Below are positions 3,783 to 63,692 of a stretch of 64,000 bases of DNA, piece by piece (position 1 is the first letter of the stretch; the number at the start of each line of letters is the position of its first letter). The stretch spans positions 966,501 through 1,030,500 of the forward strand of contig CAJNDT010006002.1 of assembly GCA_905221615.1 (NCBI GenBank), written 5' to 3'. Source of the stretch: Symbiodinium sp. CCMP2592 (lineage: Eukaryota; Sar; Dinophyceae; Suessiales; Symbiodiniaceae). Made by a program: the position numbers and the translations under genes. A model generated the notes under the pieces. The model did no database searches, was not told the origin of the DNA, and was given only the letters and a program-made list of their open reading frames with translations.

Positions 3783-3880
3783 AAGGGGCCTTAGAGTAAT
3801 CATTACCAACGGGGGTTCCTTTGTTATAGTTATGGTAAAATGGGCCCCAAAGCCCTGTTCTTACTATTCAGGCCCCTACA
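3783..3880. repeat. Family A foldback element
   Basis: Ends AAGGGGCCTTA and AGGCCCCTACA are inverted repeats; centre has GGGGGTTCC and GGGCCCCAAAGCCC as in other copies. Confidence 0.8.
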
Positions 3881-3984
3881 TTAACGCCTCGACTCTGCTC
3901 CCAAAGCCCCGAACACACCCTCATCCATAGGCCCTCCTAAACCGCTAAGCCGCTCAAAACCTAAAGCCACCCTAGGAGGGCAGC

Positions 3985-6900
3985 ATGGCGGCCACCACCC
4001 CCGAAGGGCCACTGCCCTCCACCATGGAGCTGGGTGAGAGGCGCGCAAGGGCTGGTGTGTTTCAGGGTGCCAGGCAGGCAGGAATACTTGGCAATAGTCT
4101 CGCGTTATAGACCCTACATAACTATACTACAATGACCCCAATACCCAAAACTACTGATTAAGTGTTGTTTTGAGGGTATTTCTACTAAGTGATATCCGAT
4201 ATACCCTCAGAGACGCCCCAAAAGATACTACAACATACCGCATACCCCACACCCCTTCTCTGAGGAATGCTTACGGGCTCTGAATGAGAGGGCTGAGGGC
4301 TCTCAGGGAACCTGTACACCCTAAACCACTAAATCCCTAAACGGTTTAGGGTTTTGGGTTTAGGGTCTAAATCCCTTAACCCCAACCAAAACTCAGAAAG
4401 TGTGGCTGGTGTCGACATTCTTTGACGTGGGCTGTCTTGCGGAACTCGCAACCCTCATTGCACATGGTAAAGGCCCATACGCCCATGAGGGCCACGTCTG
4501 AGTCCAGTTTGGGGTTCAGCGTTTAAATGTGTTTGAATGGGGGTTAGACGGTGTAGAGGGTTTAGAGGGTCTAGATTTTAGATAGAATTGAGGGTTCGGG
4601 TTAAGAATTCGGAATATGTCTCAAACTGTGAGCCCTGGAACCCCTCCGACACAGAATAAGTCATAGCATTTTTGCCCAGGGTGCCTTCATGTAACGAGAT
4701 AGAGTGCTACAGTCCTAGACCCTGTTCTAGTCATACGGCCCCGGTATAACGAGGTGAGGGCTTCTTGAACCCTTCTACCTCATATCAAAGGGGAAAAGTT
4801 GGGACCCTTAATGGGGACCCCTGGGTGCCTGTACTGGGCTATATAATGGGTATATAATAGCTATATTAAGGGTATATACCTAGGGGTCCTTATTAAGGGT
4901 CCGTCCTTTTGCCCTTGGATTATAGAACGCCCTGCAAGAACCCTTGCAAAAGCGCCTATGGAACCCTTGTAACGAAGCGAAGGCCAATCTCGGTAGAACC
5001 CCTTTTTTAATGTTTTCAAAGCCCCCCCCACCAACAAAAGGTCGTCCGAACCCCCAAACACCAAAGCATGAAAAATCCTGAAGCCCTGACACTAGAAACT
5101 CCAAAACCAACCCTCAACAACTCGCACCAACAGCGTCCACACTTATACGACCGCGACAGAACAGGAGCCTTAAAAAAAATTGCCGTCGCCTAAAAGCAAA
5201 CTGCAGCCTCAACCTCCGACCCCACGGCCCTAACCCTAGGCCCTAAAGCCCCGCACCACAAAGCCTTAAGCACTAATCCCTAAAAGCAAAACCCTAAACC
5301 CTAAACCCCAAAACCCTAAACCCTAAACCCTAAACCCTAAACCCCAAAACCCTTAACCCTGTGAGCCCTGAGTCCCAAAAAGTGGCCGCCCCAAAAAGAG
5401 CCATCCCTTTCGAGGAAGCCAGAGACCCTTGTCCTCTGGGTGGGAGACAACCCCAAGTCCGAGGGAGTGGCGCTGAAGGAGGGCTCTTTAGGGTTTAGGG
5501 TTTGGGGCCTAGGGTTCAGGGTTTCAGGGTTTAGGGTTCAGGGTTTCAGAGTTTAGGGTTTCAGGGTTTAGGGTTTCAGGGTTTAGGGTTTCAGGGTTTA
5601 GGGTTTAGGGTTTAGGGTTTCAGGGTTTAGGGTTTAGGGTTTAGGGTTTCAGGGTTAAGGGTTTAGGGTTTCAGGGTTAAGGGTTTCAGGGTTTAGAGTT
5701 TCAGTCAGGGTTTAGGGTTTATGGTTTGGGGTTTTAGGGGCTTGAGTGGCGTTGAAGGAGGGCTACAGCGCTTGTTTAGGGGCTTGGGTTTCAGGGTTTA
5801 GGTCTTAGGGTTCTCAGGTTTAGGGCGTTGGGTTTCGGGGTTTGGGGGCTTGGGTTTCAGGGTTTTAGGGTTTAGGGTCAGTGCTTGGGGGCTTAGAGTC
5901 TAGTTTGCAGTTTCGGTTCGTTCAGGGCCAGGGCTAATGCAGGCTTAGGGGTTTCTTGTTGTTTAGGGTTTAGGGTTTAGGGTTTAGGGTTTAGGGGTTT
6001 CTTGTTGTTTAGGAAATACTAAGCATTCTATTCAGTTTTTAGTTTTCATGCCTGGCTGAGAGTTCATGTAGGGCTGACTTAAGCTATACTTACCGCTTGT
6101 TCAGGGCATATTCAGGGTCTATTGAGGTCTGAATTTTGTTAGGTTTATTTTGGCTTAGGTTTCGTTTCGGCTTCCGGACTTAAGGTGTAGATGTGCATGT
6201 TTCAGGGTATAGGACCTGAAGAAAGCAGATCCTTTGGCCTTTTGCCAATCCTTTGTTGGAGCCTGGACCTTGTCTGCCGCGGCAAAGCGAGGGACCAGCT
6301 TGGTCGTTGGGAGAAGACGGTCGTGTGCAGAACTTGTGGCTGGGACACGGGGTGCAGAATGTTTTCCGCAAGGCTTCCACGGCGGCCGAAACCGCTGGTG
6401 GGCGTGCGCGGCGTGGAAGCATGCGTTCGGGCGAAGAGGAAGCGTACGGCTAGTGTGCCGAAGCCAGCCTTGACGCTGGCCAACGCTGGTGGCGCCTGAA
6501 ACAGTCGAGGCTGCGGATTGGCTGTTGAAGCCACCCTCAAGCCTAAGCCGCGGGCACCGTGGCTATGTCTATCCATAAGCCAGCAGCCGTCCCAGTCGCC
6601 ATCCCTGAAGCTGCAATGTCGGGGAGTCCAAAACTCAACAGCCTTTCCCTTCAGATCCCGACCTATACCATGACTAGTAAGGTGTTTTTACCGGCGTGAT
6701 GAGAGTACCCTACTTTGTACATAAACACTGACTCCAACACTCCTTCGTCGCTCCATGTACAGGTCTCAGAATCCACACCAAGACTCGCAGCGCTTGCAAA
6801 GAATCGAACTGGAAAGGTCCAAAAGCGAAAAGAGCAGCACGTTACGATGAGCAGCCCCACGACCAAAGCCACTATAGTTTAGTCCATGCCAACCCGCGGG

Positions 6901-9900
6901 AGCCTTGCTTATTCCCGAGCCTCGACATCAGAACCACACCTACCCGAACCCTAAACCCTAAACCCTAAAACACTTCAGTTGCAGGAGAAAAGGAGCGACA
7001 AAAAAAAAAAAAAAAAACCTAAAACAATCTAAACCCTAAATTCGAAGCCCTAAACCCTAGACCTTCTAAACCTCTGTGTGCCAGGACGTGGCCAACGTGC
7101 TGGGCCGCGCCGGGCTCTCTTCCCTCTCCTGGTCCCAGCACCCTGCGGGCTCCTTGCCCTCCTATGTATTTCGGTTTAGGGTTTTTAGGGTTTTGGGTTT
7201 AGGGGGTTTAGGGGGTTTAGGGGTTTTAGGGGTTTAGGGGTTTGGGGGGTTTAGGGCTTAGGGGGTTTAGGGTTTAGCATTTAGAGGTTAAGGGGTTTAG
7301 GGGTTTAGGGTTAAGGGCTGTTCTGACTCTGAAGATTTGGCTGTGGGGTTAGGATTTGGCGAGTTTTAGGGCTTCTGGTCCAGCTCAATCAGTCATCGGT
7401 ATGGAACATCATCGCAGGACGGGGTTCGAGCGGAGATGGAGGTTGAAAAGAAGGCCCTGGCAGATGGGAGGACTTTAAACTTTCTTGCCTTTAGTTTGAT
7501 CTGTTGTGGGCCCGGTGTTTTGAAAAAGAGAGAGATCAGGAGCGACACTAATCGTAGTAATATTCATAGTCAGGGCATGCACAGTCGCCCACATCGTAAA
7601 CCATACACCCAACCTTGCCCCTAAACCCAAAACCCCTAAATCCTAAACCCTAAACCCCTAAACCCTAAACCCTGAACCCTAAGCCCCTAAACCTGAACAA
7701 ACCCCGAACTTCCCCCGAACCCCTAACCCCTTAACCCTTAACCCCTAAACCCTAAACCCCTGAACCCTGAACCCGAAGCATTTAACCCAAAGCCTGGTAC
7801 ACGGAACACTAAACCCAAGCCCGAAACCTTGGACCCCTTGTAGGGCCTGCTCGAATACCGGAAAGAGCGCCGCACTATAAAGGGGCCTTAATACTTAGAA
7901 TGGGGTTTTGGGGCCCATATACTATACTTATAATACCACCAAAATTGTACAGGTACTTGCTCGGGCCCCTATACCAACTCCTTAGACTAGCCCTTATAAA
8001 CCCCTTTAAAGGAACCCCCAAAATAGAATAGGTAATTATAGGGCTCTTTTCGTAAACCCCCACCCAACCCTTAACCGTAAACCCCTAAACCCTATAAACC
8101 CCCTGAGCCCTAAACCCCGAAACCCTAAACCCCAAAACCCTAAAACCCCAAACCCTACACCCCCAAACCCTAACACCCTAAACCCTAAACCCCAAAACCC
8201 TAAACCCCAAAACCCTAAACGCCAAAACCCTAAAACCCCAAACCCTAAACCCCAAAACCTAAACCCCAAAACCCTAAACCCCAAAACCCTGAGCCGACAG
8301 CAACATGAGGTGAGGGCCTCTTGGAGTTCGAGGCGGCTCTGGGTCTTTAAGGGGACGTGGGGTTCAGGGTTTTAGGGTGGTAGGGTTTGGGGCATAGGGG
8401 TTTAGGGTTTGGGATTCGGGGTTTTAGGGTTTGGGGATTTTGAGGGAACATATCATGATACGGATCCGAAAGTATGCCAGTATTTTGGGCTTTAGGGCAT
8501 CGGGGTTGTTGGGGACGCAGTCAGCACTTTGCTTGGCATTTGCAGCTGCAAGAAGCTGTAGCGAAGTTGCACGGAAAGACAGCTGCAGCGCCCCTGAACC
8601 CTAAACCCTAAACCCCTGAAACTCTAAACTCTGAAACCCTTAACCCTGAAACCCTAAACCCCTAAAAGCTGAAACCCTAAACCCCTGAAGCCCTAAACCC
8701 TAAACCCCTTAACCCTGAAACCCTAAACCCTAAACCCTAAACCCCTGAAGCTCTAAACCCTGAAACCCTAAACCCCTAAAAGCTGAAACCCTAAACCCTA
8801 AACCCCTGAACCCAAAAGCTTCCTGAACAAGCCCAGGTGGAGACACCCGAAACCTAGAGCCCTCGAGGCCTGCACCCCGCGCGCGACCGACACCGCAACA
8901 CTACGAACCTTGAACGGTCCTAAACCCATGCTCCCATAACCACTGGTCCTCTAAACCCGCAGTTCCCAAAGCCATTATTACTATAGGTTACTGTAGAGTT
9001 TAGGGTTTGGGGTTTAGGGCCTATAAGCCCTAAACTCTATAGTAAGTTTAGGGCTCCTAAACCCACAGCTCCCAAAGCCATTACTGTGGCAGGTGAACAC
9101 CCCGGAAGTCACCGACGGTACCTGGTACATGCGCAGCAGGAAGACCTTCCAGAACGAGGCCGGGAAGAGGCTGACCAAGAGGCTCCATGCTGTAGGGGTC
9201 CAAATAGTTACCAATATTTCCCTAGGGTTCCCTGTAAAGGGATCCTTAAAGGGATAATAGGGTACTATGATATAGGGGCCTAAACCCTAAGTACCCTAGA
9301 CACCCCTTAAAGGAGCCCTGAAAGGAACCCGTAAGGGAACCTTGAAAGGAACCCTAATGTAGGGGCCGAAATAGTTACCGATACGATTTTCGGGGGGGTT
9401 CCTTATTTTATTTATAGTATATTTTCCCCCCAAAACACTATTCTAGCCATAAAGGCCCCTTTATGAAGCCTTCAACCGGAATATCCTAAACCCTTTGGCA
9501 GTCCCTCAGCCCTAAACCCGAGAATCCCTTAACCCGCACACCCCCCCGTCTGAACCACTAAGCCGCTTAAATCTTGAACACACCCTAAACCATAAACCCT
9601 AAAACCCTAAAAGCCTAAATCCTAAACCCTAAAACCCTAAACCTCTAAACCCTAAACCCTCAAAACAGGATCTGGATATGCTGCACGACATCGAGGTGCT
9701 GGCACGATCCCTGGTCGAGGCCCGGAGGATACATGGTCTCTGATTTCGGGCTTTAGGGCTTTACACCAAACCCAAAACCCAAACAGTTAACTTTGGGTTG
9801 GGTGGGGGGGCTCTAGGGTGTAGGGGTTCAAGTATGAGGGGCAGAGGTTTCAATACCCCAAACGGCCCGAAAAAGAGAGACTGAATAGGAGGATCATCGT

Positions 9901-12900
9901 TTTGTAGAGACCCGTGGAAAAGGGCATAGGACCTTTGAGAGACTCGCGCATGTCCTGGGAGTTTGTAGTTGTTAGGGTTCTACTAGGGGCAATGGGGGGT
10001 TGCTTATAGGGTTGGGAGCTTAGGATTTATGGTTTGCGATTCAAGTTCATCAGGTTATGAGCCTCGGGAGTTGCCAGCTGTGAGGGGCAAGCATCCCGGC
10101 TTGGAATGGCAACCCGCCGCAATAAGTCTAGACCCCAAAACCCTAAACCCCAATCTAAGGTGGTTCACTTTGCTAAGCCTTGAACCTGAAACCCTCAAAC
10201 CCGACTGCTGTGAACAAAACTAACAGCCTTCCAGATAGGGGCCTTAATAATTAGAATAGGGTTTTGGGCCTTACACTATAATTGTATTAAGGAACCCCCA
10301 AAATAGTACAGGTCAATTATTTAGGCCCCTATATCATAGTACCCTACTATAGATCCCTTATAGACCCCTTTAAGGATCTCTTTAAAGGGAACCCTAGGTA
10401 ATAGAAATTAGGCCCCTATAGTATCCCTACAAGGATTCCTTACAAGAGCAAAGTAGGGAACCCTTGTCCTTGCAAGAACCCGTCTAGATCCCTGAAATTA
10501 GCCCTGAAGAGATACCTTTAAGGAACCCTCTCCAAGGCCCTTAACCCTAAACCCCTAACCGGGGACCTAATATAGGGGCCTTAATAATTGGAACAGGGTT
10601 TTGGGGCCCATTGTATTATGATTATAGTAAGGCTCCAATAGGTAGTTATTAAGGCCCCTAAACCCTGAACCCTATATTAGGGCCCCTTGAATTGCTTTGG
10701 CAGGCTGCGGAGCCTAAGCTGAAGGCAGCTGGCGCCTTGCCGGCAGTCTTATGCATTTTTTTGGGGTTTTGCGCTCTATACTGGTTTAGGGTTTAGGGTT
10801 TAGCGTTCTATACCTTGTTGTGTTTGTAAGATCTTAATAGGGCATTTCTAGGGTTAGAGAATTGTTGTAGGGTTCAAGTCGAGAGTTAGGTAGTGTTGCC
10901 CCGGAAGGCACTTACACAGGCACCTGAATGATAGCCAATACTACTGTCGGGGTCCCTTATTAACATTATAATATAATATGCTCCAAAACCCTGTTCTAAT
11001 TATTGTTAAGGCCCCTATAGTAACAGACAGCCGATCAATGCGTTTCGCGGGTTTCGGGACGCTTCACTTTGCGTGTTCGGAGTCGGAGTTCATCTATTTC
11101 GCAAGGATCTCTAGAGATCGTTTTCCGACAAGGCCGAAGATGAAGGAGCACATTTAGGCTTTGCTAAGTACTTTCCTCTCATAGTCCCTGATGTGAAAAC
11201 AGTAACATGTACTCGGGAACCCTACTTTATAATTTTCCTGGCTATATATTAGAAGGGCTCCGCCCCTGTAAAAGTGGTATATTAGGAATAGAATCGGGCC
11301 CTAATATAATCCTTATAGTCACTATTACAGGGTGGTGGCAGCTTCTAAGCTATATATGTATTAGGGCGATGGAGGCCCCAGAGAGACTCCGAGGTCTGGG
11401 ATGGAAGAACGTCATCCTCTGCGGCTTCGGCAAGGGTGCCGGCATTGCCCTCTATGCCTCCCTGATGAAGATCATCCCGCAGCAGGCATGAGGGTTTAGG
11501 TTTTAAGGTTAAGCTTTAGCGAAGCAACTTAGCGATGGCAAGATCATCCCACAACATGCATGGCTTCTGAAGACGTCTCGAGGTTTAGTGGTGAACAGCA
11601 ACCCGGAACTGGCATAGCTTTCAGCTGGGTTTCGGGGGGAGTTTTAGCTTCAGGCTGAGGGTTCTAGTGCTCCTGGTTTTAGGCTGTAGGTTGCAGGGGG
11701 ATTGGGGTTCGGGGATGCGTGTGGGTGGGGTTCTCCTGATGGGGTGGCTTGGTGTAATATAGGGCCTGAATGACTACCGATACTATTTGAGGGGTTCCTT
11801 GTTGTAGCTATAGCGTACTATACTCCCTTTTTGTTCAGGCCCCTATAGCAAGGGCATTCGGGTGCGTGGTTTTCCCAGTGCGTACTTCCAGGTGGGTTGG
11901 GCCTTCCTCTGAAAACCCTAAACCCTAAACCCAAAACCTAAACCCTTTCAGAGTTCGAACATCGAATTTAAAAGTTTGGCGCTCATGCACCATTTTCGGC
12001 AGGAAGTTTCTGAGGATCGGAGATTTTGGGGCTGAACGGTTTAGGGTTGATTGTTGGGGCTTCGAGTCAGGGGTTTAGGGCTTTGGGTTCGGGGTTTAGG
12101 GTTTTGGGGCTTAGGGCTTAGATTAGGGTCAGAGTCTCTACATCTGACAGAGGAACAGCAAGCTGAGTGGCAAGTCAATCTATGACAATGCTGACGATGA
12201 TATTGCTACTGACGGAATTGCAAGCAGTTCCGATGTGGTCTAGTCACATGTAAAGCAAACATACCAATGATGGAAGCAGTAACAGCGTTGCACTTGCATT
12301 CGTGGTGGTAGTCGTGCTGGTGCAACCTCAACCCTCTAAACCTCAACTCTCAACGATGTACAGCACATGGACTACAGCAACAAAACCCCGAACCCTAAAC
12401 CCTAAACTCTGGAACCCACAATCTGAAGCCCTAAGCCCCTAAACAAAAACCTACACCGTACGCCCTTATCCGCCTATCTCTCACTGTGTTCGACAGGTCT
12501 CAGCCATGATCTTCTTCAGCCCGATTGCCGCCCGGATCAAGCACCCCTATGCGGGATTTGTGGCTTGGGGTCTTGGCGGTCTTGGGTGCGCTTTCCACGC
12601 CGCAAGCTCAACACTCTAGACTCTAGACCACAAGCCCCTACCCCGCCAAACCCTGGGCCCTAAACCCCAAACCCGAAACCCTAACTAGAGGCCGACATAA
12701 TTACCAACACTATTGTGGGGGTTCCTTATTATAGTTTTAGTAGAATGGGCTCAAAACCCTATTCTGACTATTAAAGCCCCTTTTGTACCCTGTCTAGGGT
12801 TCAGGGTTTAGGGTTTCATCCGAAAGCCCTCTGCCCGAAGCCCTGACACCGCACTCTGCCATCCCAAAACCCGAAACCCTGCCATCCCGAACCCAGAGAC

Positions 12901-15900
12901 TCCAATATCCCTTAATTAAGGCATATACCTTAAGTTATAGTAGGATCCTTAATATGATTTAAGGAATATTCCTTAATTAAGGGATATTGGAGTCTCTGGG
13001 AAGTCTTTCCAAGGTGGCCTTCCCCTCCTTCCTCGCTGAGCGATTGGGCGCCATGCCCCGCGACACCACGCCGGTGGCGCGGCAGTAACGAAGCAGTCAG
13101 GGTCGATGTTGCAGAGCTAGGGTGTACATGGAGTGGTAGTCAGCTGTTTCAACAGCACCTGAAGGCTTAAGGTTTGAGGAAGGTGTAAGGGGTAATGTCT
13201 GAGGCCCGTGATTTGTTTCGGGGTGAGTGTCAGGGCTTTAGGTTGCGATGGTTAGGGATCATGGTGTAGTGCAGCCCAAGGGCCCTTCAATAGAGTCCTT
13301 ATGGCCTGTTATATTTAGGAGTTTCCGAAATTAGGGGACCCTTATATAATACACTAAATAGTAGGATCCTTATTATAAGGACCCCAAAATAAGGTGCCCA
13401 GAATTTTCGGAAATTCCAATTTGGTGGTCTAGGTTAGGATCCTTAGGATAGTCCTGCTCCGGATAGGGAGGTTCATGAAGGAGAGGGCGACCCTAAGGCC
13501 GTAAGCCGGGAGACTCCAATATCCTTTACTTCAGGATTACACCTTAAATCATAGTAGGATCCCTAGCATGGCTTAAGGAATATTTCCTAATCAAGGGATA
13601 TTGGAGTCCCCTTATAGATGGGGGGATAGGGGCCTTAATAATCAGAGTAGGACCTTGGGGTATCGTATAGTTATACTACGGAACCCTAACAATATTATTG
13701 GTAATTACTTAGGCTGTTGGAGTAGGGTTTGGGGCCTGAGGCTTCCGAAGTAGGGTGCTTCTGAAATTTAAGTTACAGTCTTGAAAATTACGCTGAGGAT
13801 CCGCTTCAAGCATGATACTATAGGGGCCTTAATAGTCACCTTTTCTATTTTGGGATGTGATAACTGCAGTGTAATGGGCCCCAAAGCCCCCAAATCATTG
13901 CAGTAATTAGTTAAGACGCCTAGCTCAAAGACAGCTAGCTTATTCAGCGATGCAACACGCATCTTTCGAAGTACTCGCCTCAGACTTCTGTCCGATCCGC
14001 CCCAAAGCCCCATTCTAAGTATTAAGGCCCTATAGTAGGTGGCTTTCTTAGGTAAGATGCTTCGTGTTGTGCTGGGGTATCAGCATTGCAACGGTGCTTT
14101 CGCTGGTTCCAGGAAGGTGCGCTTCACTGTCAGAGGAAGGTGTTAAAGAGCAGCAGCCCTGGGCCCTAAGTTTAATGCCTACTGTGCTTTTCCACCCCCA
14201 GCCATGGGTAGGGTTCAGAGGTACAGGATTTAATTTGGGGTTTAGGGGTTTAGGGGTTTGGCGGTTGAGGGGTTGAGGGGTTGAGGGGTTTAGGGGTTTA
14301 GGGTTCGGGGTTTAGGGTTTAGGGGTTCAGGGGCTTAGGGTTTAGGGGCTTGGGGTTTAGGGGTTCAGGGGTTTAGTAGGATTTAGTGGGTTAGGGTTTA
14401 GGGGCTTCGGGTTTTTGGGTTTTAGGGTTTAGCCCCCATATCCAGAAGCTTCGAGGTGAAGATGTTCCTCGTCTGGGGCAACCGCAACAAGTCCACCCCA
14501 GGCCTGCGCGTAGGGGACGCTGAAAGGTTGAGGCTTTAGGGGTTTAGGGGTTTAGGGTGTGGGGGTGATGGGGGCTTGAAGAACTCGTGACCGAAGCCCA
14601 CTTCTATGATGGCGAGGCATTGAGTGTGAGTGGAGCTCATGGATGGTTTCGGCTGAGTAGGTTTGGGCACCCTCCAGCATAAACTCTCGGAGTCTGATCC
14701 CTTCAGTTTCATGGCGGCGGCCTCCCTGAAAGGGGGGGTTTCGTCTTGCTACAAAGTGTCCATTCTTGCATATATTTGTTGGCGCAGAAACTTGCAATGA
14801 TTGCTAGCGCTGCTAGGGTCATTAGTGTTAACACCACTAGCACCTCTAATTGCTTTCGTTGCCGTGGTCATTATTGCCATCTGTTGCTGTTATTTTCCGA
14901 CTCCTTTAGTTTTGGGTATTAGCATCTGTCCTGCAACTCTAAACCCTAAGCCGTCCCCCCCCCCCCCCAAAAGCGCACGTACAAGGCCGAGGCCAACAAA
15001 TTCCGAAGCCCGCAACTCTGAACTCTTAACCCAGAACCCCTCAATGCCCCCGAGCCTATAGTTCAAAGCAGGAACTTCGATGTAATTCAGAGGCCTTCAT
15101 GAATAGAAAAGGGTTTTGGGATACAGTATGGTACAAATTTATTAAACCCGAAGGGATAGTCTTGGCAAGCATTTAGGCTTCTGCAGTATGCCGTCCATTC
15201 GGCACTTCTTCGAGAAGTGCTACTGCTACAACCCTAAACAGCACGGCTTAAGGCCTGTAGCCACTTCCTTCGCGCCTAAACTAAGCAGCGAGCTCAGTAC
15301 CCCTTGCTTGACGCATGCACCGCAAGCTCAGAACAGGATTCCAAAGCTCTCAGAAGGTAGATTCTACACCTTGCCTTAACCCCACGTAACCTACCTTTTT
15401 AAGGACTTATATAAAGAAATCATATTAGGGAACCCTAAAAAGGCAGGTTCCTTAGGGTCCAGGTGTAAGCGCTAATTTAGCTCCACAAGCAAAGACTTCC
15501 GGAAAACCCACCTTTTTATTCAAGAAGCGGAATTTGGCTTCCTAAACCCCAAACCCTCAACCCCAACACCCTAAACCCTAAACCCCAAACCCCAAACCCT
15601 AAACCCCAAACCTTCGTAATGACGGCTGAGCCTCTGCAGAAAAGGCCCATTGCACATAAAACAAAACCAAACCTTCAACCCCAAACCATAAACTCTAAAC
15701 CCTACACCCTAAAAACCCTAAACCCTAAACCCTCAACCCCAAATCCCAAACCCTAAACCCTAAATTTTGTTCGGGCTCTCCAGGCTCCTACCGGCAGCTT
15801 TTGGCCCAGGCCCTCCGCAAGGCTCCCGAGGCCCCCCACGGCTTGGGAGTTTTGGGTAGTTGTCAAAATTATGGTCTCTCTTTGGGCACCCTAAATATTA

Positions 15901-16954
15901 GGTGCCGTAGTTATGATAATGAGCCCAAAGAGGGAGCTTAATTTTGACAACCACCCATGTCTTTGTAGTTTGATTTCTTTACATGGGGAGTTAAAGCAGT
16001 TGAAGATAAGAGCGGTTCTTTCAACCTGCGGGTTGAGGCTTTAGGGTTTACGTCGTTGTTGTTTGTTGCAGAACGGGGGTTGCTAGAATAAGGGCTTCCT
16101 GAAAGCTCTCTATAGGGTTGATGAAGCGTTTAAGGATGTGTAGGATTGAGGTTTCGGGTTGAGGATGTTGGGTTTATGGGTTGGGGTTCAGAGATGTTCA
16201 GAGATTTGGCAGATGACGGCTGCAAAGCCTTGAGTGGGAGCAACCCCACCAGCACGTTTGAATGCAATTGAACTGCAACGTGTGGAGTCATGCTTGTGTA
16301 GTAGTTCAATGCAGTCGAATGCCGCGTCCTTATAGAGCCCTCTACAGGAACCCTTATAGATCCCTTTGAAGCCTACCGAGTGCATGCAGTAGCAGAGGGG
16401 AGTCCACGGCAGTTGTATATGTAGGTCACATGATGCGAGTGTTAAAGTAGGCTGAATTCGGCATTGCAGCGGCGGCAGGCGAAACTAGTTCAGGGTAAGT
16501 TAAAATCATGTATGGCTCCACATGGTGAGGTGGTTCGCCCACGCATCACGAGGAACCCGAAGCTGTCATAAGCATATTGCGCACAAAGACCGAGGGCTTC
16601 AGCGATTGGACAGTCGGCCAGCTCACTTTATCGAACCACACTGGCTGTGACTTGCAAGTGTATCTTGTCCAGGTGCACCTGACGCCAGACACACTCCCGG
16701 ACGGCGATCACACCTTCGATGCCCCTCGTCTGAAGTCTCTGCTAGAAGCAGTCCGGCCGCAGGGGTTGTCAAAGGCTCGTGCGTGTGTATTTCCTGGTAC
16801 TTCAGCCCAGACAGTCCGCACACTTCGACTTATGGTACACCAGCACTGCCACCGTAGTCTGCAAACCAAACGTCTTCAAGAAACCCGTCTAACATTGCGG
16901 CTTAACTCATGGTCAATACCATTTCTGAGGTTCCTTCTTATTAATGTCGTATAA
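3985..16954 (+). CDS. Split gene: alpha/beta-hydrolase-like protein, 13-14 exons
   Basis: Proposed exons: 3985-4033, 5423-5478, 5758-5769 (tentative micro-exon), 7085-7165, 8546-8584, 9093-9191, 9669-9719, 10704-10745, 11384-11485, 12497-12585, 13004-13084, 14446-14501, 15784-15830 and 16673 onward (open to TAA at 16952-16954). Phases agree at every join, giving about 270 residues before the last exon. The protein starts MAATTPEGPLPSTMEL, then LVLWVGDNPKSEG (likely strand beta3 and oxyanion loop), VILCGFGKGAGIALYASL (nucleophile elbow), MFLVWGNRNKSTPGSYRQLL and DGDHTFD (catalytic His region). This order matches the phospholipase/carboxylesterase (acyl-protein thioesterase-like) branch. The elbow has Gly where Ser is expected and the acid loop has Asn where Asp is expected, so it may not be an active esterase. 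Donors are GT, GC and probably GA. The C-terminal limit is uncertain. Confidence 0.72.
4787..4918. repeat. Family J element, orientation 1
   Basis: Contains GGGCTATATAATGGGTATAT and AATAGCTATATTAAGGGTAT; its reverse complement matches 28963-29062 closely. Confidence 0.8.
5285..5352. repeat. Telomere-like CCCTAAA block
   Basis: Mixed CCCTAAA and CCCCAAAA units inside the first intron of the hydrolase gene. Confidence 0.9.
5486..5743. repeat. Telomere-like TTTAGGG/TTTCAGGG block
   Basis: TTTAGGG units alternate with TTTCAGGG. The block is bounded by two 21-bp direct repeats of coding sequence (5465-5485 and 5744-5764). Confidence 0.9.
7000..7017 (+). other. A18 run joined to telomere-like repeats
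   Basis: Eighteen A residues followed by CCTAAAAC; a 30-base unique segment separates it from CCCTAAA on its left. Confidence 0.6.
7168..7320. repeat. Telomere-like TTTAGGG(G) block
   Basis: TTTAGGG with one to three extra G per unit; begins directly after the exon ending at 7165. Confidence 0.9.
7622..7790. repeat. Telomere-like CCCTAAA block
   Basis: CCCTAAA and CCCCTAAA units in the opposite orientation to the block at 7168, within the same intron. Confidence 0.9.
7876..7974. repeat. Family A foldback element, inverted orientation
   Basis: Begins TAAAGGGGCCTTAATACTTA with GGGGTTTTGGGGCCC inside and ends CGGGCCCCTATACC. Confidence 0.85.
8060..8292. repeat. CCCTAAACCCCAAAA dimeric block
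   Basis: CCCTAAA alternates with CCCCAAAA, a 15-bp higher-order unit repeated about ten times. Confidence 0.9.
8590..8815. repeat. Telomere-like CCCTAAA/CCCTGAAA block
   Basis: CCCTAAA, CCCTGAA and CCCCTGAAA units after the exon ending at 8584. Confidence 0.9.
9192..9235. repeat. Family A left end at an exon donor site
   Basis: GTAGGGGTCCAAATAGTTAC starts at the first base after the exon ending 9191, so the element supplies the GT donor. The right half is not clearly preserved. Confidence 0.6.
9359..9464. repeat. Family A foldback element
   Basis: GTAGGGGCCGAAATAGTTAC to AAAGGCCCCTTTATG; centre GGGGGGGTTCC. Confidence 0.8.
10234..10335. repeat. Family A foldback element, inverted orientation
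   Basis: GATAGGGGCCTTAATAATTA to ATTTAGGCCCCTATATC; centre TAGGGTTTTGGGCC and GGAACCCCCAAAATAG. Confidence 0.9.
10570..10661. repeat. Family A foldback element, inverted orientation
   Basis: ATATAGGGGCCTTAATAATT to TATTAAGGCCCCTA. Confidence 0.9.
10919..11020. repeat. Family A foldback element
   Basis: Left end decayed; right end TTAAGGCCCCTATAG intact, with CTCCAAAACCCTGTTCTAAT inside. Confidence 0.75.
11758..11848. repeat. Family A foldback element
   Basis: TATAGGGCCTGAATGACTAC to TTCAGGCCCCTATAG. Confidence 0.8.
12686..12784. repeat. Family A foldback element
   Basis: AGAGGCCGACATAATTACC to TATTAAAGCCCC; centre GGGGGTTCCTTATTATAG. Confidence 0.8.
12892..13000. repeat. Family B foldback element next to an exon acceptor
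   Basis: Long inverted repeat: CCCAGAGACTCCAATATCCC with TTAATTAAGG inside, mirrored by GGGATATTGGAGTCTCTGGG. The hydrolase exon begins at 13004, three bases beyond the element. Confidence 0.9.
13317..13418. repeat. Family D foldback element
   Basis: GAGTTTCCGAAATTAGGGG to AATTTTCGGAAATTCC, centre with GTAGGATCCTTATTATAAGG. Confidence 0.85.
13508..13610. repeat. Family B foldback element
   Basis: GGGAGACTCCAATATCC to GGATATTGGAGTCCC, internal arms diverged. Confidence 0.85.
13625..13713. repeat. Family A foldback element, inverted orientation
   Basis: GATAGGGGCCTTAATAATCA to GGTAATTACTTAGG; right end decayed. Confidence 0.75.
13818..13923. repeat. Family A foldback element
   Basis: CTATAGGGGCCTTAATAGTC to TTAGTTAAGACGCCTAG; centre TGGGCCCCAAAGCCCCCAA. 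Confidence 0.75.
14225..14435. repeat. Telomere-like TTTAGGGG block
   Basis: TTTAGGG(G) with TTGAGGGG variants just before the exon at 14446. Confidence 0.9.
15384..15456. repeat. Family F foldback element
   Basis: GTAACCTACCTTTTTAAGG mirrored by CCTAAAAAGGCAGGTTCCTT. Confidence 0.8.
15854..15957. repeat. Foldback element H
   Basis: GGGTAGTTGTCAAAATTATG mirrored by TTAATTTTGACAACCACCC; lies 23 bases after the hydrolase exon ending at 15830. Confidence 0.85.
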
Positions 16955-18007: not shown

Positions 18008-18096
18008 CTATAGGGGCCTGAATAATGGGGGGTTCCTTACTCTGATATAGTATAATGGGCCCCAAAGCCCTATTCTAATTATTAAGGCCCCTATAT
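18008..18096. repeat. Family A foldback element
   Basis: CTATAGGGGCCTGAATAATG to AATTATTAAGGCCCCTATAT. Confidence 0.9.
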
Positions 18097-19418
18097 TATT
18101 TCGGGTCTTCGCACCACCTGTTTTCAGTTATCACACAGATCATAGCACACCTTCGTGTGCATTAGGATACCGGACATCATGCTATCATGCCATGCCATGT
18201 TGCATTTTCGGGCTTGTGCTCGCCGCGATGCCTCTGCAACGGCCACAACGGGGCATGCAAGAGAGAAAGCAGTTTTGTATTTGACGGGCCATCGAGTTTC
18301 CGTGCGCTCATGCCGCGATTTTGTCCTGCACCCAGACAGCTTCTGCAAGCACACATAGGAATGAGCACGTTCTGCAGCGGCACTTTGGGAAACATATGTG
18401 CAGAGGCTGTTCGGTATATGGGTGCTGGCAGTGGCAACAGGGCAACAACCTCAGCATCTTATGCCATGACATTGTATACATACTGATAGTTGTTTCTTGG
18501 TATCTTGTTGCAATGCGTGAAACGCTGCGGGCTGGAAGCGATCCCTGTGTTTGTCTCTTCCCTGGGAGCACGCTCGCGCCGTAGCCTCTTTTGAGCCGTA
18601 GCCCTTATTACTGCAGTGGATACGCCCTCACAGGTATGAAAGCGTCGGAACGCAACCATTTCAATGTGATGTCGGCCATGAAAAAGCTGATTCCGCAGGT
18701 TTCGGGGTCTTTGCCCAAGGATCAAACGACCTGAAGGAAGTACGGCCCCTCTCCATCCTTTGTGAATAAACCTACTTTGGGATTGAAGCACACACACACA
18801 CACCAAAACAGTATTCTGATTATAAGGACACCACCCTAACCCAAAACCCTAGAACCCTTGTAAGAATCCGTTTTGCGACCCTCATGGTACTGTCATCAAG
18901 CCCTTGCGCGCACACCCCCTTCTAGCCAGACAGCGCAATACCCTTATGTGAGACAAAACCCTAAATCTTAAAATGAAGCCCATCATGTCTGGCATGCACC
19001 ACATAAGCTCTACACAGACCTTGTAAAACCTGGAAAAACTCTTTCTCTTTCGGCATAATTAGTTAACTTTGTATACATATGCATGTATACGAACAGATGC
19101 ACACACATACCTGGAGGCCTTTGTCATGTCGTATTAGGCTCTTGGTTTTGGATCCTTCTGCCTTTTGTACTCACCCGAACCCCTCTCCCACTCGGTCTCC
19201 AGGGAGGGGTCCGGCAAGCTTGGCAGCCCCAATTCCTAAACTCAAGATGTAACATAGGGGCTCCTATTGTTCGGGTTTAGGCTTTAGGGTTTAGGGTTTA
19301 GGCTTTAGGGTTTAGGCTTTAGGTTTTAGGTTTTAGGGTTTAGGGGTTTAGGGGATTGGAATAAGGTTTCTGGGCATATTTGCGGTACAAGAAACCCTAA
19401 AACCCTGCACCCTATCCC

Positions 19419-19541
19419 TACTTGGCAGGGCAGGGGACTTAGTAAGTAGGTTATAAGTAGAGTTATAAGTACCCTGAATGGAGTTATTCCAATTATAACT
19501 CACTTATAACCTACTTACTAAGTCCCCTGCCCTTCCAAGTA
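19419..19541. repeat. Family C foldback element
   Basis: TACTTGGCAGGGCAGGGGAC and CTTAGTAAGTAGGTTATAAG are mirrored at the right end, ending CCCTTCCAAGTA. Confidence 0.9.
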
Positions 19542-19612
19542 AGGAAGGGCACGTTACCGTTGCGGGCCTCTCAGATGCTAGGCTAGGCTCGCCGTTCCTC
19601 AGCCCAAATCCG

Positions 19613-22116: not shown

Positions 22117-22209
22117 TAAGGGTTTAATAGATACTACTTTGGGGGTTCCTTTCTATAACTAATCGTTTTATGGGCTCCAAAGCCATATTCTAATGACTAA
22201 GGCCCCTAA
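22117..22209. repeat. Family A foldback element
   Basis: Left end decayed; GGGGGTTCCTTTCTATAAC and ATTCTAATGACTAAGGCCCC preserved. Confidence 0.7.
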
Positions 22210-23734
22210 ATTAAGAATCTGAAGCTTGAATCGAGCAGCCTTGTTTATTCGAAGGAGTTTGGGTATGTTGTAGTGTAATTGTATTTATGGAAGCAAAGAG
22301 TATGTACATCCTAGACCTTGGCGCTAAGTCCCCAAACCGTCCACACCCCTCCCTACGCCCTGAAACCCCTTAAACGCCCGTGCCCCCAAACCCCAAACCC
22401 CATAAATCCTAGTGTAGAAGTCGGAATAGTTACCAAGACGATTTCAAAGCGCTCCTTATGACACTGATCTTATACCTAGACCGCGAAACCCTGTACCAAA
22501 TTTTGAGTCCCTTATACCTTACCCCACTATAGAACTCTCAAGCAAACCCTTGTACACCCATTTTAAGAGCCCTTATAGCTCCTGTACTGTATGTCTCCTA
22601 CAGAACCCTTGCAAGAAACAGAACCCTTGCATTTTTTGCTGCACTGTGTGTCTAAGGCCGCGACCTGTCGACGATACTAAAGTAAAGCCCGATTCGGCGA
22701 ATTATCGAAAAGGATAATCATTGATAGCACGGAATATTGCGGAACTGCGCAAGGTCAGGCACCCACTTTGTGCTCAGCTTGGAACCGTCAGGAGTAAACT
22801 GATTGCAGAACAAGCCAGCTTGTAACAAGAAACAGAACCCTTGCAAGAAACCCATCTTTCCCCTGTTTAATCATCCTTACAGTTCCTATATGTCCCTTAT
22901 AGAACCTTTAAGCGATATCCTTATATGTACCCTGCTTAAGATCCCTTATAGCTCCTAAGCTCATGAGCCTCTCTCTGGAGGCCCTGTCGGTGAGAGAGCT
23001 GCCCGGCGACGGACGAGACCAAAGGCTGGGAACAGTTGCACCAGAGAGGGCGCAGGGCTTTGGGTTTTGGATAAGGTTTCGGGTTGAGGGTTCAGGATCT
23101 AGGCGATCTGGGTTCAGTGTGCTGGTTTTTTTGTAGTTGAAGCCTCCCTTTGAGGCACATTGCAGTCCGAATAGTAGTTAAGCTACTGGAATGAAGGATC
23201 TAGGACCCTGAGCCCAGAACCTTCTGTCTGGTAAACCCAAATAAGAAACGTACATGGCAGCTGCCAGAGATCGTGCTCCGCAGGTGAGGATCGTATACCC
23301 GCAGTATCCCAGCGTCTCAAGCCCGTTTGGGCGTGTCAAGAAGTGCGTTTTTTGAAGATGTTCAAGCTTGCTTATAAGGCAGGCAATATTGAACTCCACC
23401 GGCGTGTGCTGCCCCAAGACAGCACATGAGATAATCGGGTTCAAAGGACATAGATAGCAGTATACAGGTTGGGTCGAAACAGCACGTGTACCAATGTGTG
23501 TTAGTTCCCATAAACAGACTCTAAACCCTAAGCCCCAACCCTAAACCCTCACCCCCCAATCATACTCTAAGCCCCAGGCGAAGCATCAAACCTCAAACCC
23601 ACAGCCCTAAAGCTTAAACCGGAAGCCACAAACCCTAAACCGTAAGCCCACTACGCTAAGCCCTCAGCCCACAACCCCCCCAAACCCTAAGCCCCCAACC
23701 CTGTATCTGAAGCAATTGAACTGCAATCCGCACC

Positions 23735-26700
23735 ATGTCCATGCGGATCCGAGTGACCTTGCTCAGCGGCCGGGGCGTAACGGTGGAGTTGGTGGCGAGC
23801 AGCCAGGCAGGAGTTTCACGGGTTTAGGGTTTAGGGTTCGGGGTATAATAAGGACTCGCGGGGGAATTTCATTCAACAAATGGGGTCAGGCTTGTTATCA
23901 ACGTTCCCGTAGAACTAAGGAGAAATAAGGGGCCCCGAATACTACGGTGCCGACATGTCCATGTAAAAAATCCAACAGAGCCCTTACAAAAAACAGATAA
24001 CTGTTGGTTTTTAGACCTTAACCCTCAACCCTAATTCCTAAATCATCCCTACACAAAGAACAGCCGTTTGTTTTTGTATGCCATAAACCCTAAACTCTAA
24101 ACCCACCAGAGACTCCAATATCCCTTAATTAAGGAATGTACCTATGATCATACGCGAATCCTTCATATGGTTTAAGGAATATTCCTTAATTACGGGATGT
24201 TGGAGGCTCTGGGAACCTTCAACCCCATAGATCCCTTGAAGGAACCTATAGATCCTTTAAAGGGACCCTAGTTATCCCTTAATGGATTTGGGAGTCTCCC
24301 CTAAACCCCAAACCCCAAACCCTAAATTCCCACCCAGGCCTGCTGAGGCCGTGCCCACCCCTTTTCTTAGGGTGCCTGGACCCAGAAGGACATCCGGCAG
24401 TGATTGACACCAACTCTGGATGGACAATGGGTGGAGCCATTGGAGAGTGGTCGAATTCAGCCCCTAGGGCTGACTAGGGGCTGAACCAAGCCATTAGGCC
24501 CCTTGCGTGGCGCCCAAAATGGCAGAGAGAATTCTCTCGAATGTCGGGTTGTGTTTTCCATTTGGCTCCCTTCAGAAAAGGCCCCAGAGGCCTCTCAGCT
24601 GGCAGATTCCAGGGACCCGAAGGCCCCTGGCGGGTCCCTGTTTTTGTCGGTTTGTGGGACCCCGGCCCTTCCTGGCCCCCCCTGGCCCCCCTGGCCCTTC
24701 CTGGCCCCCCCTGCCCCATCTCGGGTGGGAAAAGGTTAGGAACCAATGTGTAATTGTTTGGTGGTGGAATCGCATTTGAACGCTAGACGTAGATATGCCG
24801 CCCCCCCACACCCCTGGGAGTGTTGGGGGCGCCATCCTACATAGAAAAAACTGCCGCTGCGCGGCGAGACGCCCTAAACCCTAAAACGCCAGCCAGGTCG
24901 GAGAGCTAAAGCAAAGAGCCCAGGAGCTGCTGGAGGTGGCGGGGGGGGGGGGGGGGTTCGTTCCCAGAGTCTCCAAAACCCCTTAATTAAGGAATATACC
25001 TTAAAGCATATAAGGGGTCCTATTATAATTTAAGGTATATTCCTTAATTAAGGGGTTTTGGAGGCTTTGGGTTGGGGCAGTGTGGGTTGAATTAGGGTTT
25101 CGGGCTTTAGGGTGTTTAGGGTTCAGGGTTTCTGGGTTTGTGGTTGGGGGGGGGGGGGTTATGGTAATACAGCAAAACAAATTGGTTGTCAGGGTTCCTA
25201 CCGTGTGCTGTAGCTACACGATGGCATTCGTCATCAGGGTTCCTTTGTATAGTTAGCATAGTCTTATCGAAAAATACTTCAATTTCCTGCTCTAGTTGTT
25301 ATTGCCTGTATCTTCGCTTGCAAGTTATAGTTTCGTATTTTCGAACGCGTAAGGCTCTTCGAAACGAGCCCATCAGCACCGACCTATGGTTCCGTATAAG
25401 GGTGGATACCGCTCTACGTGGGCTAGGGTCTTGTAGGCTCTGTTTGCAAGGGTCTTGAAAGCAACCCTTTACAGGGCTTTTTTGTAAGGTGCAAGCTCTA
25501 AGCCCTAAAGTCTAAACCGTTGGAGTGTCGTAGTGAACCATTTTGTTTGACACGGTTTTATAGTGGAAGTATGGGTCCGTTTTGGAGGGTCTAGGGTTTT
25601 AGGGCTCAGGGCTTAGAGGGTCCGTATGAGCCATCTGTTTGAGCCCCTCACCTGCAAAATTCGCATGCCACACGCGCAAGATTCTTGAGGCAGACCGCTT
25701 TGCCGCATTTCATATGGAGCATGACATAATATTATATTGCATAATTAGATGCACTATAATATGGTATTATAGAGTTAAAATGTAGTATGATATAGTTTAG
25801 TAGAGTCTGCTGCCATATAATGCGCGATAATACAATCTAGCACAACCATAAAATACATACTGTATCATCTCATACAGCAAAACAAAACATAGTATACATG
25901 CGACATCAGGTAGTATGATGAACATACTGTATTATAACACGCCTCAACCCAGGCCGAAAGCCCCACAGCCAGGCCTTAGCTTCACATATTCTAAGAAGCT
26001 TCGCAAGGTCTGCATTTTCGAACTCGTTGACACTCATGAACCGCATCGCCGCCTCCTTCCGCAGCTGACACTGCTGGAGGCTTTGGACTGAGGGCTTGGG
26101 TTGTTCAACCCTTGAAACCCCTGAGACATGAATTTGCAAAGGCTTCTGGGGGGGTTTAGAGTTATGCTCGCTTGGGGTTCAAGCAGTTCCGGTTTTTCAG
26201 GATCCGGGTTCGTTAAGATCCTATGTTATGAGAGACTCCGCAGCCCGTGAAGGAAGGAATCTACTTGATAGTGTCGGGGGATCGATTCTTCTGATTTAAG
26301 GCATGTTCCCCAATTCAAGCCCTAAACCTCAAAAGCCCAACAACCCTCAACCCTTTAACCCTAAACCCTAGAAGCTCCAAAATAAAAACCCTAGAAGCTC
26401 AAGGATTTGGAGATTTTGTGCTGGGAGTTAACTCAAGCCGAACCTGGGAAGCGTTTGGCGAATTGGCTGAGAGAAGGGGCTTAGGCGTTCGAAGGCAGGG
26501 GTTTCGGGTTTAGGGTTTGGTGTTTAGGATTCAGGTTGGGATGTAGGGTTTAGGGTTTGGGTCCGTTCTTTAGGCGAGGGCTTCGGGTATAGAGTTCAGG
26601 GTTTGAGGTGCAAAATGGTATCCCGAGGCCAGTTTGAACCTTGAGCGCCAAGTTCTACATGCTTGACCTTAACCCGAATCTCCCGAGCACTGAGCCATTC

Positions 26701-39090: not shown

Positions 39091-39310
39091 CTTCAAAACG
39101 TGGATGACTTCCGCCCCCCCAGAGACTCCAATATCCCGTAATTAAGGAATACTGTGATGTAAGGGATATTCCTTAATTGAGGGATACTGGATCCTACTGT
39201 GATTTAAGGGATATTCCTAAATCAGGGGATATTGGAGTCTCTGGGCCCACGGCGCCGGGCATTGTCGTCGAAAAGCTGCGCGTTCAACCTTGCAAGCCGA
39301 CTCGCTGAAG
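39091..39310 (+). CDS. Two candidate exons flanking a family B element
   Basis: Left exon (after CCCGCAG) reads LQNVDDFRPP and runs into the element starting at 39118; right exon after 39244 reads PTAPGIVVEKLRVQPCKPTR and a stop. The exact splice points are ambiguous because the element ends overlap possible GA donor and AG acceptor sites. Confidence 0.35.
39118..39244. repeat. Family B foldback element between candidate exons
   Basis: CCCAGAGACTCCAATATCCC to GGATATTGGAGTCTCTGGG with an internal duplication of the right arm. Confidence 0.9.
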
Positions 39311-39456: not shown

Positions 39457-39632
39457 TCTTGGAGTTGAGTTGGCAGAAGGTCTCGTTGATGACATCCCAG
39501 AGACTCCAATATCCCTAAAATAAAGGAATACTCCGTAAATCACATTAGGGATCCCTACTATGGTTTAAGGGATAATCCTTAGTGAAGGGATATTGGAGTC
39601 TGTGGGATCCTGTACAGCACGGTTTACAGTTT
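39457..39632 (+). CDS. Candidate exons flanking a second family B element
   Basis: Left block after GCACAG reads GRLGVELAEGLVDDIP and meets the element at 39496; right block after 39606 reads GILYSTVYS or a neighbouring frame. Same arrangement as 39118-39244. Unrecognised. Confidence 0.3.
39496..39606. repeat. Family B foldback element between candidate exons
   Basis: CCCAGAGACTCCAATATCCC to GGGATATTGGAGTCTGTGGG. Confidence 0.9.
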
Positions 39633-40936: not shown

Positions 40937-41045
40937 AATATGGGACTTTCCGAAAATAGGGGCACCTTATTTTGGAGTCCTTATACTAAGGATCCTATTA
41001 TTTAGGGTACTATATTAGGGTCCCCTAGTTTCGGAAACTCCCATA
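40937..41045. repeat. Family D foldback element before a terminal exon
   Basis: ATATGGGACTTTCCGAAAAT to GTTTCGGAAACTCCCATAT. Confidence 0.9.
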
Positions 41046-42075: not shown

Positions 42076-42233
42076 AACCCACTCCTGGCACCTCTAATCG
42101 GGCCTCTGAGGCCCTCTCCCCTCTACCTCTCCTGGCTCCTTGTGGCCTTCATGATTACAAGAGGGTTCCTTTAAAGGGATGTCTAGGGTTTCCTTAGCAG
42201 GGCTAAAGTTTCGTGTTCTATAAGATAGGGGCC

Positions 42234-42332
42234 TTAATACGTAGAGTAGGGTTTTGGGGCTCATTATACTATAGTCATAATAAGGACCCCCCAAAAAATA
42301 GTGGGGGGGGGTGTTATTTTGGCCCCTATAGT
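42234..42332. repeat. Family A foldback element, inverted orientation
   Basis: GATAGGGGCCTTAATACGTA to TATTTTGGCCCCTATAG; an inserted G run in the right arm. Confidence 0.85.
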
Positions 42333-43070: not shown

Positions 43071-43088
43071 CCCTGAAACCCTACACCC

Positions 43089-43223
43089 TACTTGGAGGGG
43101 CAGGGGACTTAATAAGTAGGTCATAAGTAGGGTTATAATTGGGGTAACTCCATTTAGGGTACTTATAACTCTACTTATAATCTACTTATAATCTACTTAC
43201 TAAGTCCCTTGCCCTTCCAAGTA
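43089..43223. repeat. Family C foldback element
   Basis: Same termini as the copy at 19419; the ATAACCTACTTATAA motif is duplicated in the right arm. Confidence 0.9.
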
Positions 43224-43510
43224 AACCCTAAACCTGAAACCAAATCCAGGCCCTTGGAACCCCTGTAGTTGCGGTGCAGAGCTCCCCAAGCTCGGCAAGC
43301 ATTTGAGGCCAAGGGAGCGCAAATTCTTGCCATATTACACCTTAATACGAGCGGAGTGGACTATAAAGCCCTAACTGAACCTTAAACCTAAAACCCTAAA
43401 CCCTCAAAATCCTATACCCTGAACCTTAAACCTTCAACCCTAAACCCTGAACCTTATACCCTCAGCCCTATACCCTAAACCCTATACCCCGAAGCGACCC
43501 TAACTCCCAG

Positions 43511-44837: not shown

Positions 44838-44934
44838 CTATAGGGGCCATTAATAATTACCAATGCTGTTTTGGAGGTTCCTTGTGGTAGCATGGGTCCC
44901 CAAACCCTATTCTAATTAGTTAGGCTCCTATACC
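44838..44934. repeat. Family A foldback element
   Basis: CTATAGGGGCCATTAATAAT to TTAGTTAGGCTCCTATACC. Confidence 0.85.
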
Positions 44935-45672: not shown

Positions 45673-45776
45673 ATAAAGGGGTCTGAATAATTAGAATAGG
45701 GTCTTGGGGCCCAATTATACTATAACTGTAATAAGGAACCCACAAAACCCCATTTTATTTATTAAGGCCCCTACAG
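45673..45776. repeat. Family A foldback element, inverted orientation
   Basis: TAAAGGGGTCTGAATAATTA to TTATTAAGGCCCCTACAG. Confidence 0.85.
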
Positions 45777-45886: not shown

Positions 45887-45978
45887 TCTTACCTTTGGTT
45901 AATAGGGAAGGGAAGATTGGTAGTAATAGCAGTTATAATTGTACCCCATTCCTCCATTCCCTACTAACCAAAGGTAAG
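45887..45978. repeat. Foldback element I
   Basis: CTTACCTTTGGTTAATAGGG mirrored by CCCTACTAACCAAAGGTAAG; the right end carries a GTAAGTG donor-like sequence. Confidence 0.85.
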
Positions 45979-46382: not shown

Positions 46383-46490
46383 TATGGGAGTTTCCGAAAA
46401 TGAGGAGTACCTTATTTGGGGTCCTTATAATAAGGGTCCTATCATTTAGGGTACTACATTAGGGTCCCCCATTTTTGGAAACCCCCTTAT
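46383..46490. repeat. Family D foldback element
   Basis: TATGGGAGTTTCCGAAAATG to TTTTTGGAAACCCCCTTAT. Confidence 0.9.
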
Positions 46491-62172: not shown

Positions 62173-62174
62173 TT

Positions 62175-62830: not shown

Positions 62831-63062
62831 GGGTTGACGGTGTCACGAATTCCCGCTGGCGTCTTCAGGAGATTAAGCTGAGTAAGTTGAGGATGTCTGG
62901 TTTAGGGCAGGGGTTTCTGATTCAGCGATCTTGGTGTGGAGGGGGCTGACTTGGGGTTCAGGGTGTAGGTGTGCAGGAGTCAGGGTTTAGGGGCTTCAAG
63001 ATTTAGGGGTTTCGTTATGGGCGCCAGGAAGTAGTGGTCTCCGGATTGGATTAGTTGTGCAG

Positions 63063-63287
63063 TGGGGTTGCGTGAAGTCCCGAAGTTGGCACTAGGGAAT
63101 GAGTTGGTAGGCACTTGGAGGTTCATGGGTAGTTATAAGTGGGGTTATATATGTCCCCTAATATGGGTTATAAGTATAGTCGCCCTACGTATAACTACCC
63201 ATGAACCTCCAGGTATCGAAGATATCCACAACCCAGGTGGAACATCTCAGTCTTCAACGAGCCAACCAGAACCTAGATGAGGGTTAG
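63063..63287 (+). CDS. Two 3' exons split by a foldback intron
   Basis: Exon 63063-63106 reads GLREVPKLALGNEL; exon 63213-63287 reads VSKISTTQVEHLSLQRANQN then LDEG and a stop. The 106-bp GT-AG intron between them is a near-perfect 27-bp inverted repeat with a short loop. Phase 0 on both sides. Protein family not recognised; earlier exons probably lie to the left. Confidence 0.5.
63107..63212 (+). mobile_element. Foldback element forming a whole intron (family E)
   Basis: Arms GGAGGTTCATGGGTAGTTAT and ATAACTACCCATGAACCTCC (25 of 27 terminal bases pair). The intron starts GTAGGC and ends CTCCAG, so intron and element nearly coincide. Confidence 0.75.
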
Positions 63288-63384: not shown

Positions 63385-63458
63385 TACCTGGACCCCCAAA
63401 ACATGTAGAATAATAGCCTTTTACAGGTTTTGGACCATTACTTTGGGGGGTTCAGGTG
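63385..63458. repeat. Foldback element M
   Basis: ACCTGGACCCCCAAA mirrored by TTTGGGGGGTTCAGGT. Confidence 0.7.
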
Positions 63459-63574
63459 GTAATAGTAATAAGAAGGAAACAAATTGAATTCCTCAACCTT
63501 TTACTGAAAGTGGAAATAGTAGTAATAGTACCAAAAACGAAATAAGTCTCATTCCTCAACCCTTTTACCCTCTT

Positions 63575-63692
63575 CTTGGAAGGGCAGGGGACTTAGTAAG
63601 TAGGTTATAAGTAGAGTTGTAAGTACCCTGGATGGAGTTACCCCAATTATAACCCTACTTATGACCTACTTACTAAGTGCTCTGCCCTTCCA
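63575..63692. repeat. Family C foldback element upstream of an exon
   Basis: CTTGGAAGGGCAGGGGACTT to GTGCTCTGCCCTTCCA; exon begins 17 bases later. Confidence 0.9.

Follow-up and report, generated by a model that had tools for sequence, protein, structure and literature searches.

The 64-kb window analysed here (the whole stretch, from contig CAJNDT010006002.1 of Symbiodinium sp. CCMP2592) contains an RCC1-like gene, a set of helicase-like open frames and many short foldback elements, one of which, belonging to the family that we call J, interrupts the RCC1-like gene. We scanned the window for gapped inverted repeats with telomere-type runs masked and a score cut-off of 60, used five local dinucleotide-preserving shuffles as the null and collected weaker family members by profile searches; the family letters were assigned in this analysis and are independent of those in the preliminary description of this DNA. 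The scan returned 17 strong inverted repeats (score at least 60) in the window and none in any of the five shuffles. Three of the 17 are TATG-type microsatellites (at 17538, 21093 and 41330), thus leaving 14 foldback elements. Across the genome assembly (1.098 Gb in 5,383 contigs), searches for families D, G, C and J, with 40 candidates scored per family, gave 1,582, 4,208, 1,116 and 1,113 first-look candidates, respectively, and the top-scored D, G and C copies elsewhere in the genome are of 92-97% identity. Families E, F and H, single or nearly so in the window, were found again at other loci, at least six D copies lie within the window itself, and family I gave only partial, C-like matches elsewhere. 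Twelve more non-microsatellite foldbacks were present in 50 kb taken at fixed coordinates from ten other contigs, some of them different from the window's strong hits. These families of foldbacks are genuine and occur genome-wide, and the preliminary description, which had already reported many of them, was right and understated the case. A further foldback family, T (CCTATAGTCTCCATTGTAGTT), was seen at two other loci (L051, 4014-4129; L055, 2155-2254) and is absent from the window's 17 strong hits.

Miniature inverted-repeat transposable elements (MITEs) are short and non-coding, with terminal inverted repeats, fixed-length target duplications and high copy number, and the elements described here share these traits: the window families are short, non-coding and bounded by terminal inverted repeats, and families D, G, C and J combine similar length with 1,113-4,208 first-look candidates each. 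For the duplications, element ends were set by pattern, overlapping loci (L001-L008 and L029) were excluded and one C pair was counted twice. Duplications of 2 bp were found in 28/33 end pairs of family D (3 bp in just three), in 12/15 of family C (TA in nine of the 12) and in 4/4 of family T, and duplications of 4 bp in 23/31 end pairs of family G (mostly ATAT), 8/12 of family E and 3/5 of family H. The 49 J loci came down to 42 once seven without a paired end had been excluded; 22 of these carry an exact 4-bp duplication and a further six agree at three of four bases. Duplication length is constant within D, C, G, E, T and J, while for H it rests on five copies. Since 2-bp (D, C) and 4-bp (G, E, H, J) duplications occur side by side, at least two insertion chemistries are represented, and the idea of a mixed community of MITEs is supported by the short, non-coding elements with terminal inverted repeats, their copy numbers and these two duplication classes. 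The families also differ at their termini: AG is nearly always present in J, H and C and almost never at the 3' end of D, G and E. As 79 of 84 J ends are AG, J brings a potential 3' splice site in either orientation.

Element J in an RCC1-like gene and at a second coding site

The window gene that hosts J matches Pfam RCC1_2 above the cut-off (E 1.7e-14) and, among solved structures, beta-lactamase inhibitory protein II (E 2.7e-11). When the gene is read unspliced, stops fall inside J. AGGAC flanks the element on both sides, so that several cuts yield the same product; the AG-ending cut, CAG/GACG...CCTAG/GACA, would define a GA-AG intron. Excision of J gives LIQ-DRLRDVQQI across the junction, followed by an exon that is open for about 150 codons, and all ten fetched RCC1-like paralogs (59-63% identity) are open and align without a gap to the J-excised protein over all 136 residues, the J site included; retaining both GAC copies would add one residue. 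First-look candidates for RCC1-like paralogs number 4,691 in the genome, and the 150 that were scored gave 194 matches, many of those listed being open for some 400-600 codons and a single one for 2,060. Element B lies inside a putative GC-AG intron of the same gene (28518-29074, read from the RCC1 repeat pattern only), about 8 bases, by eye, from the acceptor.

A second J copy splits a gene at another locus (L059), where removing J and one target copy gives a single 348-codon frame, open at the locus edge. L120 and L121, paralogs of 49% and 48% identity, pass the junction without a gap. Related copies occupy two independent coding sites at which the paralogs are uninterrupted, and at both of them the duplicated target begins with GA and boundaries of the form G/GA ... 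AG/G lie exactly where they are needed; judged from the sequence, GA and AG at the element/target borders would serve as splice sites in both genes. The earlier suggestion that the foldbacks seed introns is supported by these two exonic insertions, and for the J kind only; for at least one family, the introner idea is likely to be correct. At a further locus (L082) only the 3' flank looks coding. An H copy at L065 was considered as an exonic insertion, but its frames do not fit an exact excision.

Elements and coding-segment edges

As a proxy for exons we used a codon-usage model trained on 1,684 codons from six long stretches of open frame in the window, which means that the same stretches were also scored by the model; on 200 kb of Markov sequence it called six segments at a score of at least 8. 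The model is coarse: it misses short exons, places edges roughly and does not separate introns from intergenic DNA, and the result applies to coding edges, not to whole genes. The window test excludes the stretch 30300-37700, and the controls were drawn from the same loci, many of which had been fetched because they hold elements, the window in turn holding long genes. For the 40 elements of the window, seven edges lay within 25 bp of coding-segment edges (threshold 6) and 12 within 50 bp, compared with 10.2 ± 3.3 and 18.1 ± 4.6 in shifted sets. The 146 elements at other loci placed 18 edges within 25 bp, compared with 26.3 ± 5.2, and observed proximity was below the controls at each of the ten combinations of threshold and distance. 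The deficit is not to be read as avoidance, since the model can scarcely call a coding segment within an element and the shifted sets have an advantage from this. A coding segment (score at least 3) ran across the excised site in 9/131 full-length elements versus 9.9% of 1,520 random excisions, and an empty-site frame of at least 100 codons was found for 11/81 cleanly duplicated elements versus 23.9% of 2,222 random excisions, a test in which six of 12 J rows had wrong ends (CTAG having been taken as the duplication) and their excisions were off.

By this model the families together showed no enrichment at coding-segment edges or in coding DNA, either in the window or at the other loci; the tested copies favour neither exon borders nor coding DNA. 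As far as a codon model can test it, the claim that many elements sit at exon borders, enriched at splice junctions, is not supported as a general rule by these counts (7 versus 10.2 in the window, 18 versus 26.3 elsewhere), which correct, for this sample, the impression of elements crowding such borders. Among the ten border sites that had been listed, 29131 is supported as an exact exon/intron border, 29062 is, judged by eye, some 8 bases away from an acceptor that the same protein places, 39118 is ambiguous, and the other seven are reading-frame impressions only. Open frames on the minus strand lie next to the D copies at 39118 and 39496, and Pfam returned no family for two short frames of that strand near 39 kb. 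For the copy at 39118 a unique splice reading was not obtained, frames 0 and 1 both being open across the excised site.

Interpretation and comparison with known introners

The best explanation of the whole, to which we give a probability of about 0.8, is that the foldbacks are non-autonomous cut-and-paste DNA transposons, that is, MITEs of several families in one dinoflagellate-like nuclear genome, and that J acts as a GA-AG intron where it lies in exons. Movement would be driven by transposases, with at least two transposition chemistries, one leaving 2-bp (D, C) and the other 4-bp (G, E, H, J) duplications. A copy that landed in an exon would be tolerated as an intron if splice sites were supplied: the terminal inverted repeat of J, ending in AG, would provide the 3' splice site, the duplicated target would give the GA 5' splice site, and taking out J together with one target copy would restore the original coding sequence. 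J is accordingly predicted, from its sequence context, to be spliced out in RNA.

Several observations weigh against this explanation. Excision with one target copy always restores the frame and so proves insertion into an exon, not splicing, and both J-bearing genes may be disrupted copies. No Pfam family matched the L059 protein, and the duplications of the two exonic copies agree at just three of four bases. Only L059 is clearly exonic among the 42 paired genome copies, the window copy being the other exonic one, and J is therefore without an evident taste for exons. Donor-like duplication starts (GA, GC or GT) are rarer than chance in other J copies, with 4 of 44 strand-instances in 22 copies with exact duplications versus 8.25 by chance. 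For family A, which has the most copies in the window, no clear duplication emerged from a copy set into which members of C and J had entered.

Alternatively, the elements might be plain MITEs without any intron role, the two exonic J copies being gene-disrupting insertions in pseudogenes. The lack of enrichment at coding edges or in coding DNA and the restoration of any frame by exact excision, by construction, are as this account would have it, as is the size of the RCC1-like family, among whose many members dead copies are expected. Yet both exonic copies are bounded by G/GA ... AG/G at the needed places, and the flanking exons are still open (348 codons at L059; about 150 codons 3' of J in the window) despite diverged target copies. 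Moreover, donor-compatible duplications, found in 4/44 instances among other J copies, are present in 2/2 exonic ones, a weak hint, with n = 2 and exons G-richer, that only spliceable insertions survive in exons. We consider plain MITEs an unlikely alternative. In the opposite view, taken by the preliminary description, every family is an introner family with a preference for exonic insertion, and most introns were seeded by them; it can point to the two exonic J cases, to the nearly invariant AG ends of J, H and C and to the D copies at 39118 and 39496 beside open frames. It is already disfavoured, and very improbable in our judgement, because coding-edge proximity is below shifted controls, through-junction frames of at least 100 codons are found for 11/81 elements versus 23.9% of random excisions, AG is almost never the terminus of D, G or E, and several of the fetched D and G copies were judged by eye to lie in telomere-like repeat or in other DNA that looks non-coding. 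As to the inverted repeats being chance, microsatellite or telomere-repeat artefacts, TTTAGGG/CCCTAAA is abundant in the window and three of the 17 strong hits are microsatellites, but the empty shuffles led us to reject chance hairpins, and the D, G and C copies of 92-97% identity elsewhere and each family's own target duplications leave this idea practically no room; for the named families it is refuted.

A more general rule may be entertained, although we hold it unlikely: MITE families of unrelated transposition chemistry would coexist in one genome, and a family would become an introner if the terminal inverted repeat has an AG end (J, H and C) and the duplication can give a GT, GC or GA donor. 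Under such a rule, and just as tentatively, the 4-bp duplications of J and H could supply a donor and those of C, mostly TA, could not, and D, which has no terminal AG, could conceivably splice through an internal GGAG acceptor and a GC donor at 39118. If true, a simple rule read from the sequence would tell which transposons are able to give rise to introns. With many MITE families of different duplications in one genome, and two exonic insertions with intact paralogs, the material is well suited to asking which insertions of transposons turn into introns.

The mechanism is already in print, and the J elements would be further introners of a known type. For Symbiodinium microadriaticum, PMC9860276 (PNAS 2022) describes introners that bring the 3' AG and take their donor from the duplicated target, with GC and GA 5' splice sites reported for introner families; J has the same arrangement of AG and duplicated-target GA. 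The S. microadriaticum introns are transcript-confirmed, whereas that of J is read from frames and paralogs, and the same source gives introners as enriched in genes in 161/175 genomes, whereas the mixed element set examined here has no enrichment at coding edges. For Amoebophrya, PMC7789003 (2021) describes introners with inverted repeats, direct repeats of 3-5 nt at their borders and non-canonical splice sites, features that they have in common with the elements here, as they do a dinoflagellate host. That account gives no family-specific inverted repeats and places only 10% and 31% of the introners in putative MITE families; the elements here, in contrast, have family-specific ends and fixed-length duplications. 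A 2024 review (PMC11453091) lists GA among dinoflagellate donors and, in its part on Polarella work, 15 introner families in P. glacialis, each of 100 introns or more, which resembles the present genome in having many element families within one dinoflagellate. Introner elements in dinoflagellates are reported in PMC7789003, PMC11114475, PMC10522408, PMC10666404 and PMC11453091.

Feature coordinates and other contents of the window

Table 1. Foldback elements and RCC1-like gene features in the window.
Feature	Position	Strand	Basis or remark
Element A	3782..3880	-	profile search
Element B	4784..4920	-	inverted-repeat scan and profile search
Element A	7878..7975	+	profile search
Element A-like, degraded	9192..9330	not assigned	boundaries by eye
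Element A	9358..9463	-	profile search
Element A	10235..10334	+	profile search
Element A	10571..10668	+	profile search
Element A	10917..11019	-	profile search
Element A	11759..11843	-	profile search
Element A	12686..12782	-	profile search
Element D	12892..13000	+	2-bp duplication AA; strong inverted repeat
Element G	13316..13419	-	profile search
Element D	13507..13610	+	profile search
Element A	13626..13714	+	profile search
Element A, partial	13819..13890	-	profile search
Element E	15853..15957	+	inverted-repeat scan; recurs elsewhere
Element A	18009..18095	-	profile search
Element C	19410..19549	+	TA duplication; flanking bases included
Element A	22123..22210	-	profile search
Element A, weak match	22406..22516	-	profile search
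Element D	24106..24213	+	inverted-repeat scan and profile search
Element D	24963..25071	+	duplication TT; strong inverted repeat
Element E-like	27200..27300	+	profile search
Element A	27302..27406	-	profile search
Element F	27772..27881	+	inverted-repeat scan; recurs elsewhere
Element A	28240..28325	-	profile search
Putative preceding RCC1-like exon, GC donor	28481..28517	+	reading frame
Element B, degraded	28951..29070	+	within putative 28518-29074 intron, near acceptor; right boundary judged by eye
RCC1-like exon 5' of J	29075..29130	+	paralog alignment, Pfam
Putative GA-AG intron, 162 nt	29131..29292	+	GAC of one target copy plus J; gapless paralog alignment
Element J, introner-type MITE	29134..29292	+	terminal inverted repeat CTAGGTTYCCC, last bases ...CCTAG; exceeds the usual length of 112 bp
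RCC1-like exon 3' of J	29293..29744	+	paralog alignment, Pfam
Element D, longer copy	39118..39245	-	in putative minus-strand exon
Element D	39496..39606	-	duplication AT; 3 bp inside putative minus-strand exon start
Element G	40942..41042	+	4-bp duplication ATAT
Element A	42225..42329	+	profile search
Element C	43085..43224	+	flanking bases included
Element A	44839..44932	-	profile search
Element A	45674..45775	+	end CCCCTACAG adjoins open frame, putative acceptor
Element H	45888..45978	+	4-bp duplication TGAT; AG end
Element G	46383..46489	+	4-bp duplication TTAT
Element I	63113..63214	+	inverted-repeat scan
Element C	63570..63693	+	flanking bases included

In the region 45674-46010, inspected by eye, elements A and H enclose an open frame at about 45776-45873; the end of A, CCCCTACAG, is a putative acceptor for this frame, and H lies about 8 bp past a possible donor. 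Long open frames at 50115-52392 resemble a superfamily-1, UvrD-like helicase with apparently few introns; Pfam gave Viral_helicase1 above the cut-off and UvrD models just below it. One other window frame had PPR matches below the cut-off, and another a weak reverse-transcriptase match.

Spliced-leader relics in genomic DNA are as left by retroposed messages. Using a 21-base query motif that we take to be the dinoflagellate spliced leader, we found no match in the window with up to three mismatches; a relic matching 20 of the 21 bases is present on the minus strand of another locus (L014, near position 745; the same copy as L007). Degenerate TTTAGGG/CCCTAAA telomere-type repeats are dispersed through the non-coding DNA of the window (for example at 5260-5740, 8100-8800 and 62170-62840), in places as opposed arrays that make long inverted repeats.
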